NCBI GenBank assembly: GCA_028875055.1
Contig: JAPPGG010000066.1
Location: 1-64,000 of the forward strand
From: Chloroflexota bacterium
GTDB taxonomy: Bacteria; Chloroflexota; Dehalococcoidia; Lucifugimonadales; UBA3495
Direction: 5' to 3'
DNA: 64,000 bases
Shown here: piece by piece, positions 23,235-23,976 of the stretch
Layout of the letters: the number at the start of each line of letters is the position of its first letter
Position numbering within the stretch: position 1 is the stretch's first letter
Program-made: the position numbers and the translations under genes
Notes under the pieces: generated by a model
Told to the model about the DNA's origin: nothing
Seen by the model: only the letters and a program-made list of their open reading frames with translations
The model's database searches: none

Positions 23235-23268
23235 AAAAATCGGCGATACGTACCCGCATCGCCGATTT
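23235..23268 (-). terminator. Intrinsic terminator of the Sec-OsmC gene
   Basis: On the minus strand an 11-bp perfect stem (AAATCGGCGAT with ATCGCCGATTT, 23237-23268) is followed by TTTTTG. It lies 40 bp after the TAG at 23308, so the transcript covers the reading frame beyond the internal TGA. The rest of 22885-23307 shows no gene. Confidence 0.72.
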
Positions 23269-23307: not shown

Positions 23308-23757
23308 CTAGTGGTGAGCTTCTGCAAAAACCTCGGCAGAAACGCTGGTAGTAGGGGTCGCCACGGCGACCGAACCATAAAGGGGTCAACGACGCTTCCA
23401 TTGGTCCACCAGGTACTGCCCCTGGTCGTCATCCAGCCCCCACAGCTGGAAGTGAACCTTGATGTCGTCATATACGGAAACGGCGCCCTCGTTGGCGATG
23501 GCGGCGCGGTCCGGGTCGCGGAAGGCCTCAATGCTGACGTCCATCCAGTTGAGGGGAATTTCCTCGCCCGTAGCAATGCGCTCCACCATGTTCACCGCGC
23601 ACGCAGTGATGCCGGACAGGAACAACTCGCCGGCTCCGACTTCCTCTCCACCGGAACCGTCGGCCACCCAGTGGTGGTTGCGGGTGTTGCAAATGGCGCG
23701 CCCAGGGGTCCCGGTGCTATAGCTTCTTACCCGATATGCGAGGGCTAGTTCTGCCAT
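23308..23757 (-). CDS. OsmC-like protein, predicted selenoprotein (in-frame TGA = Sec124)
   Basis: The frame begins at ATG 23757 behind a perfect AGGAGGT, and meets TGA at 23386-23388 after KRR. It continues in the same frame as PLYGSVAVATPTTSV and stops at TAG 23308, giving 149 residues. In OsmC-like proteins a cysteine followed by P-L/V-Y-G/S occupies exactly that TGA position, the second redox cysteine. The first is Cys53 in SGITACAVNM, 71 residues earlier, a normal spacing. A hairpin with a GU-containing loop follows the TGA at bacterial SECIS distance. Peroxide or thiol redox chemistry is likely. If TGA is read as stop, the product is 123 residues and lacks the second redox residue. Confidence 0.85.
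23356..23388 (-). promoter_or_regulatory. Candidate bacterial SECIS element with UGA codon (OsmC-like)
   Basis: The UGA is at 23386-23388. A 6-bp perfect stem GGUCGC/GCGACC (23366-23371 with 23356-23361) encloses loop CGUG, which begins 20 nt after the UGA. Counting the U of UGA as 1, the loop G-U is at 25-26; in E. coli fdhF the G-U essential for SelB binding is at 23-24. The stem is fully within coding sequence, as in bacterial selenoprotein mRNAs. Confidence 0.72.
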
Positions 23758-23976
23758 ACTCTCGACCTCCTTTCGTCTCCTGCTTCCGACTGGTGGCTTA
23801 TATTAACTACATTCACTCGCGAAAGGCAACCACAAGAGTGCAACCGCTGATCACGTCAGCCCAGTCCGCGGCCCGCCAGCAGGGCAACCTCCCTGCTTCC
23901 ACCGGGGCTGTGGTATATTTACCAACCAAGGTCATCCCCCTTTGAACGGCAACAGTCCCACTTCGGAGGATTAGCT

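Follow-up and report, generated by a model that had tools for sequence, protein, structure and literature searches.

A predicted OsmC-like selenoprotein group with selenocysteine at the second redox position in Chloroflexota and Alphaproteobacteria

An OsmC-like gene of a SAR202-like Chloroflexota genome contains an in-frame TGA, which raises the question of whether its protein ends there or continues through a selenocysteine (Sec), and of what selenium would do at that place in the OsmC fold. The gene lies in a window of 64,000 nucleotides (positions 1 to 64,000 of contig JAPPGG010000066.1, assembly GCA_028875055.1; 3.75 Mb, 98.4% complete). Its relatives put the organism in the Chloroflexota, close to a SAR202 bin. 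A preliminary description of this DNA, made from the letters alone, had proposed that the TGA encodes Sec at the site of the second redox cysteine of OsmC-like proteins. The features considered here are:

23308..23757, minus strand: predicted OsmC-domain selenoprotein gene, 149 aa with UGA124 as Sec; ATG at 23757, TAG at 23308-23310
23386..23388, minus strand: in-frame TGA, codon 124, predicted to be read as Sec; aligned with the second redox Cys of OsmC/Ohr proteins, where these have Cys-Pro (TGA in 62 sequences, TGC/TGT in 5)
23599..23601, minus strand: TGC at codon 53, encoding the first redox cysteine; no variation in a 13-sequence alignment
23765..23771, minus strand: Shine-Dalgarno AGGAGGT, 7-nt spacer before the ATG
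23356..23371, minus strand: putative bacterial SECIS hairpin GGUCGC-CGUG-GCGACC, starting 14 nt after the UGA, with the loop beginning 20 nt after it
23235..23268, minus strand: intrinsic terminator hairpin AAATCGGCGAT...ATCGCCGATTTTT, past the TAG; fold z = -5.25

The reading frame and its relatives

The gene layout given in the preliminary description was verified on the sequence. The OsmC-like frame meets the TGA directly after KRR and runs on through PLYGSVAVATPTTSVSAEVFAEAHH to the TAG, codon 124 lies 71 residues from Cys53, AGGAGGT stands ahead of the start and the terminator lies past the TAG. Cys53 is found in the context TACAVNM and the putative Sec in RUPLYGS (UPLY). The 149-residue read-through protein matched the Pfam OsmC profile (PF02566) with 39.5 bits, above the cut-off of 27.5, over residues 39-136, a span that includes the TGA, versus 27.6 bits for the 123-residue product. 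The OsmC fold was also supported by sequence profiles and by an AlphaFold2 model (pLDDT 81.8), to which Ohr/OsmC structures were similar with Z about 10-11.5. S-adenosylmethionine synthetases in the same fold list (Z about 9) were regarded as a partial resemblance and not as kin.

Sister genomes that end the gene at this position with TAA or TAG, or that carry an unrelated C-terminus, had been named as evidence that would overturn the proposal; in the homologues found, codon 124 is Cys or TGA and in no case TAA or TAG, and the sequence continues in the same way. Among ten loci from named genomes, codon 124 was TGA in nine (five from Chloroflexota, four from Alphaproteobacteria) and TGC in one proteobacterial locus. 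The gene was present in 30 of the 59 genomes nearest to that of the window, with exactly one internal TGA in each, and a phylum-wide scan of 400 genomes gave 28 matches, of which those re-read had TGA or Cys at codon 124. Removal of duplicates left 62 TGA sequences and five Cys sequences (TGC or TGT; L024, L032, L167, L170 and L172) from Chloroflexota, in the window genome's own class and beyond, and from Alphaproteobacteria. Since 62 distinct sequences carry TGA at the same codon and the downstream frame is conserved, chance is excluded. On a tree of the part upstream of codon 124, Sec/Cys changes numbered at least four. The Cys homologues resemble the rest of the group in keeping Cys53 and in having Cys-Pro at 124, but differ in the TGC or TGT codon and in a downstream hairpin that is not intact.

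These relatives bear directly on the possibility that the UGA is a true stop and that a 123-residue OsmC protein is made. The standard code would have it so, and the shorter product does pass the Pfam OsmC cut-off, if barely (27.6 vs 27.5 bits). However, neither the second redox residue nor the final OsmC strand would be part of that product, the frame after the UGA (UPLYGSVAVAT) is conserved in two phyla, Cys takes the place of the UGA in five relatives, and a covarying hairpin lies 3' of the UGA in UGA copies only. We thus regard a true stop as very improbable. Standard annotation would nevertheless cut this gene short in dozens of genomes, and a selenocysteine of the active site would go unnoticed.

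The ratio pN/pS was 0.57 after the UGA vs 0.35 before it, pointing to weaker constraint in a variable tail, although these ratios were given little weight because synonymous sites are near saturation. In one sequence, L169, the UGA is followed by Leu (TULLFG) where Pro is otherwise conserved, and the same hairpin is present. A second TGA in L155 turned out to be the terminal stop of that gene. The flanking genes are common to the window and a near relative (G734) and are not shared with four more distant genomes, so no partner gene is proposed.

A hairpin after the UGA and the selenocysteine machinery

The published distance from UGA to loop in bacterial SECIS elements is 16-37 nt (PMC10778597). 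The hairpin described here has a distance of 20 nt and a small loop with a G. Its 6-bp stem and NGUN loop were intact in all 62 UGA sequences, without a single broken pair, whereas each of the five Cys sequences had two or three broken pairs and had lost the loop GU. Pair 1 occurred as G-C, A-U or C-G (at least four changes on the tree), pair 4 as C-G or U-A (at least four) and the loop ends as C-G, A-U or G-C (at least seven), giving at least 15 changes, nearly all at third codon positions or synonymous, with complementarity kept throughout; one wobble change each was seen in pairs 2, 3 and 5. Codons 130-133, which form the hairpin, varied less at their third positions than any others in the gene (H 0.18 vs 0.75-1.83 for the other testable conserved degenerate codons). 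When the 59-nt stretch was folded alone, the hairpin was not its minimum-energy fold (z -0.13), and the case for it therefore rests on conservation and covariation. Retained wherever the codon is UGA and lost wherever it is Cys, the hairpin amounts to a clean natural experiment. Residue 132 is Val (GUN) in the Sec proteins vs Ala, Thr, Lys or Gln in the Cys relatives, for which reason it is probably the RNA loop that fixes Val132.

The absence of selB or selC, which the preliminary description had considered decisive against Sec, was not observed: the same assembly contains all four components, namely a tRNA-Sec with anticodon tca (UCA; 67.5 bits), selB (345 bits vs a cut-off of 242), selA (542 bits) and selD (385 bits). 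The selD gene has an in-frame TGA of its own. This locus (L019, G000:C49:5814-6737) is a probable Sec gene, in which the TGA lies in GGTTGAGCCGCCAAG and is followed by GGACCTGGTGCAGGTCC, a likely hairpin. Of 11 genomes that contain the gene or a close relative, 10 had a selB match exceeding the cut-off, the exception being the draft G396, and selA was found in 29 of the 30 carriers near the window's genome, with no match in G757 (87% complete); assembly gaps are the likely cause of both absences. Because nearly all genomes of the family have selA, its presence does not discriminate carriers from non-carriers.

A genome-wide change of code, with UGA read as Cys, Trp or Gly, would also leave the frame open, and nothing further was found for it; the presence of tRNA-Sec, SelA, SelB and SelD, the exact tracking of UGA by the hairpin, and the use of TGA as the terminal stop of the same gene in relatives L033, L036 and L118 make it extremely unlikely. 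Taken from sequence, the machinery, the TGA and Cys homologues and the covarying hairpin give strong support to the core proposal, that an OsmC-like protein carries Sec at its second redox cysteine. UGA124 is almost certainly decoded as Sec, yielding a 149-residue redox selenoprotein of the OsmC superfamily with a well-supported SECIS element. SelB, bound to the hairpin just past the UGA, would deliver Sec-tRNA-Sec, and translation would then carry on to the TAG.

Relation to the UxxT selenoproteins

That OsmC-like proteins are among the predicted bacterial selenoprotein families, as stated in the preliminary description, is correct insofar as one such family, with the motif UxxT, appears in the literature (Zhang 2005, PMC1088965; PMC2398784; PMC9312934; PMC13188914), but Sec there occupies the first cysteine and the gene of the window falls into a separate group. 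NCBIfam models an OsmC-related (seleno)protein as NF041052 (OsmC_like_Se), with a cut-off of 95 bits. In the class of the window genome, 20 loci exceeded this cut-off, each with one TGA, and those read as protein have the TGA at the first cysteine (AFULLTQ, LFUEMTQ, that is, UxxT) and Cys at the second. One of them belongs to the window genome itself (L079, 1456-1959 of that locus; G000:C68:116227-116643), where the TGA takes the place of the first redox Cys (LFUEMTQ) and the second is Cys. The two kinds of protein share the OsmC fold, bacterial Sec decoding and Sec at one of two redox positions, and the UxxT type is common in the same class. They differ in order, the UxxT proteins having Sec first and Cys second and the window protein Cys53 first and Sec second, in UPLY, and the two are 12% identical (alignment A3).

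The window protein could be taken for a member of the described UxxT family on account of the common fold and a weak NF041052 match (20.7 bits), yet this score is far under 95 bits, the Sec and Cys positions are reversed and the motif is UPLY, so that membership is highly unlikely. The reversed order and the low score place the protein outside the NF041052 family as an OsmC selenoprotein. It apparently represents a previously undescribed group, the published UxxT motif being assigned to the first cysteine through the NF041052 loci and not through the accessions of the papers. Our search, which covered the open literature, turned up neither an account of Sec at the second OsmC position nor a paper pairing SAR202 with selenoproteins, or Chloroflexi with OsmC and selenoproteins.

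Possible redox roles of Cys53 and Sec124

The residue of Ohr that attacks the peroxide is Cys61 and the resolving one Cys125, with Arg19 and Glu51 assisting (PMC5962072). A profile alignment placed Cys53 on Ohr Cys61 and Sec124 on Ohr Cys125, a correspondence that, together with the OsmC fold, links the window protein to Ohr (e.g. XfOhr, 4XX2). Arg20 and Arg26 were invariant in the 13-sequence alignment (A2, which takes in L105 and not L025); the loop of residues 27-37 had pLDDT under 50. Unlike the window protein, Ohr has no Sec. At its Glu51 position the proteins studied here have Gly or Ala and, one residue on, a Glu, and the NCBIfam HydprxOhrVib model gave the window protein 13 bits vs a cut-off of 240. 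With Gly/Ala at the position of Glu51, the chemistry of Ohr is not simply transferable.

Folding should bring Sec124 opposite Cys53 in the OsmC active site. By homology with Cys61/Cys125 of Ohr, the two are likely redox partners that would cycle via a selenenylsulfide while reducing a peroxide, a disulfide or another oxidised substrate. Selenocysteine usually replaces the attacking residue of an enzyme. As this is the place that Sec generally takes, and as the Ohr Glu is displaced, we lean slightly toward Sec124 as the first attacker and Cys53 as the resolver, a polarity reversed relative to Ohr. The same selenoprotein might instead work with Sec124 resolving, Cys53 attacking as in Ohr and Sec124 forming and quickly exchanging the selenenylsulfide. 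The invariance of Cys53, its alignment with peroxidatic Cys61 and that of position 124 with resolving Cys125 are consistent with this alternative, which we consider somewhat less probable given that the catalytic Glu of Ohr is not at the equivalent position and that in the related UxxT group, in keeping with the general habit of Sec, it is the first, attacking cysteine that Sec replaces. Under the preferred assignment, with Sec124 attacking, the group would be an undescribed one with Sec at the resolving-Cys site of Ohr, its roles swapped relative to all described OsmC/Ohr proteins and a mirror-image, Sec-first enzyme encoded in the same genome, a composite picture to which we give an even chance. 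The occurrence of Sec at one or the other cysteine of a single fold, and in a single genome at that, would allow a direct test of selenium at attacking vs resolving positions.

Other OsmC-like genes were noted. A third OsmC-domain gene of the genome, inside the window (L104, 2477-2863, plus strand), has Cys first and Ser second (GSPVTQS), without TGA. In one OsmC-like match (L099, G072:C65), the in-frame TGA falls at neither Cys position, and the frame has the look of a frameshifted or decayed copy, not of a selenoprotein. Six loci from the class (L097, L098, L100, L101, L102 and L103), all below the NF041052 cut-off, have their TGA in place of the first Cys (GTUTVITL, AUTVVTL, GULSVIL) and Cys-Pro second, and are possible additional OsmC selenoprotein groups.
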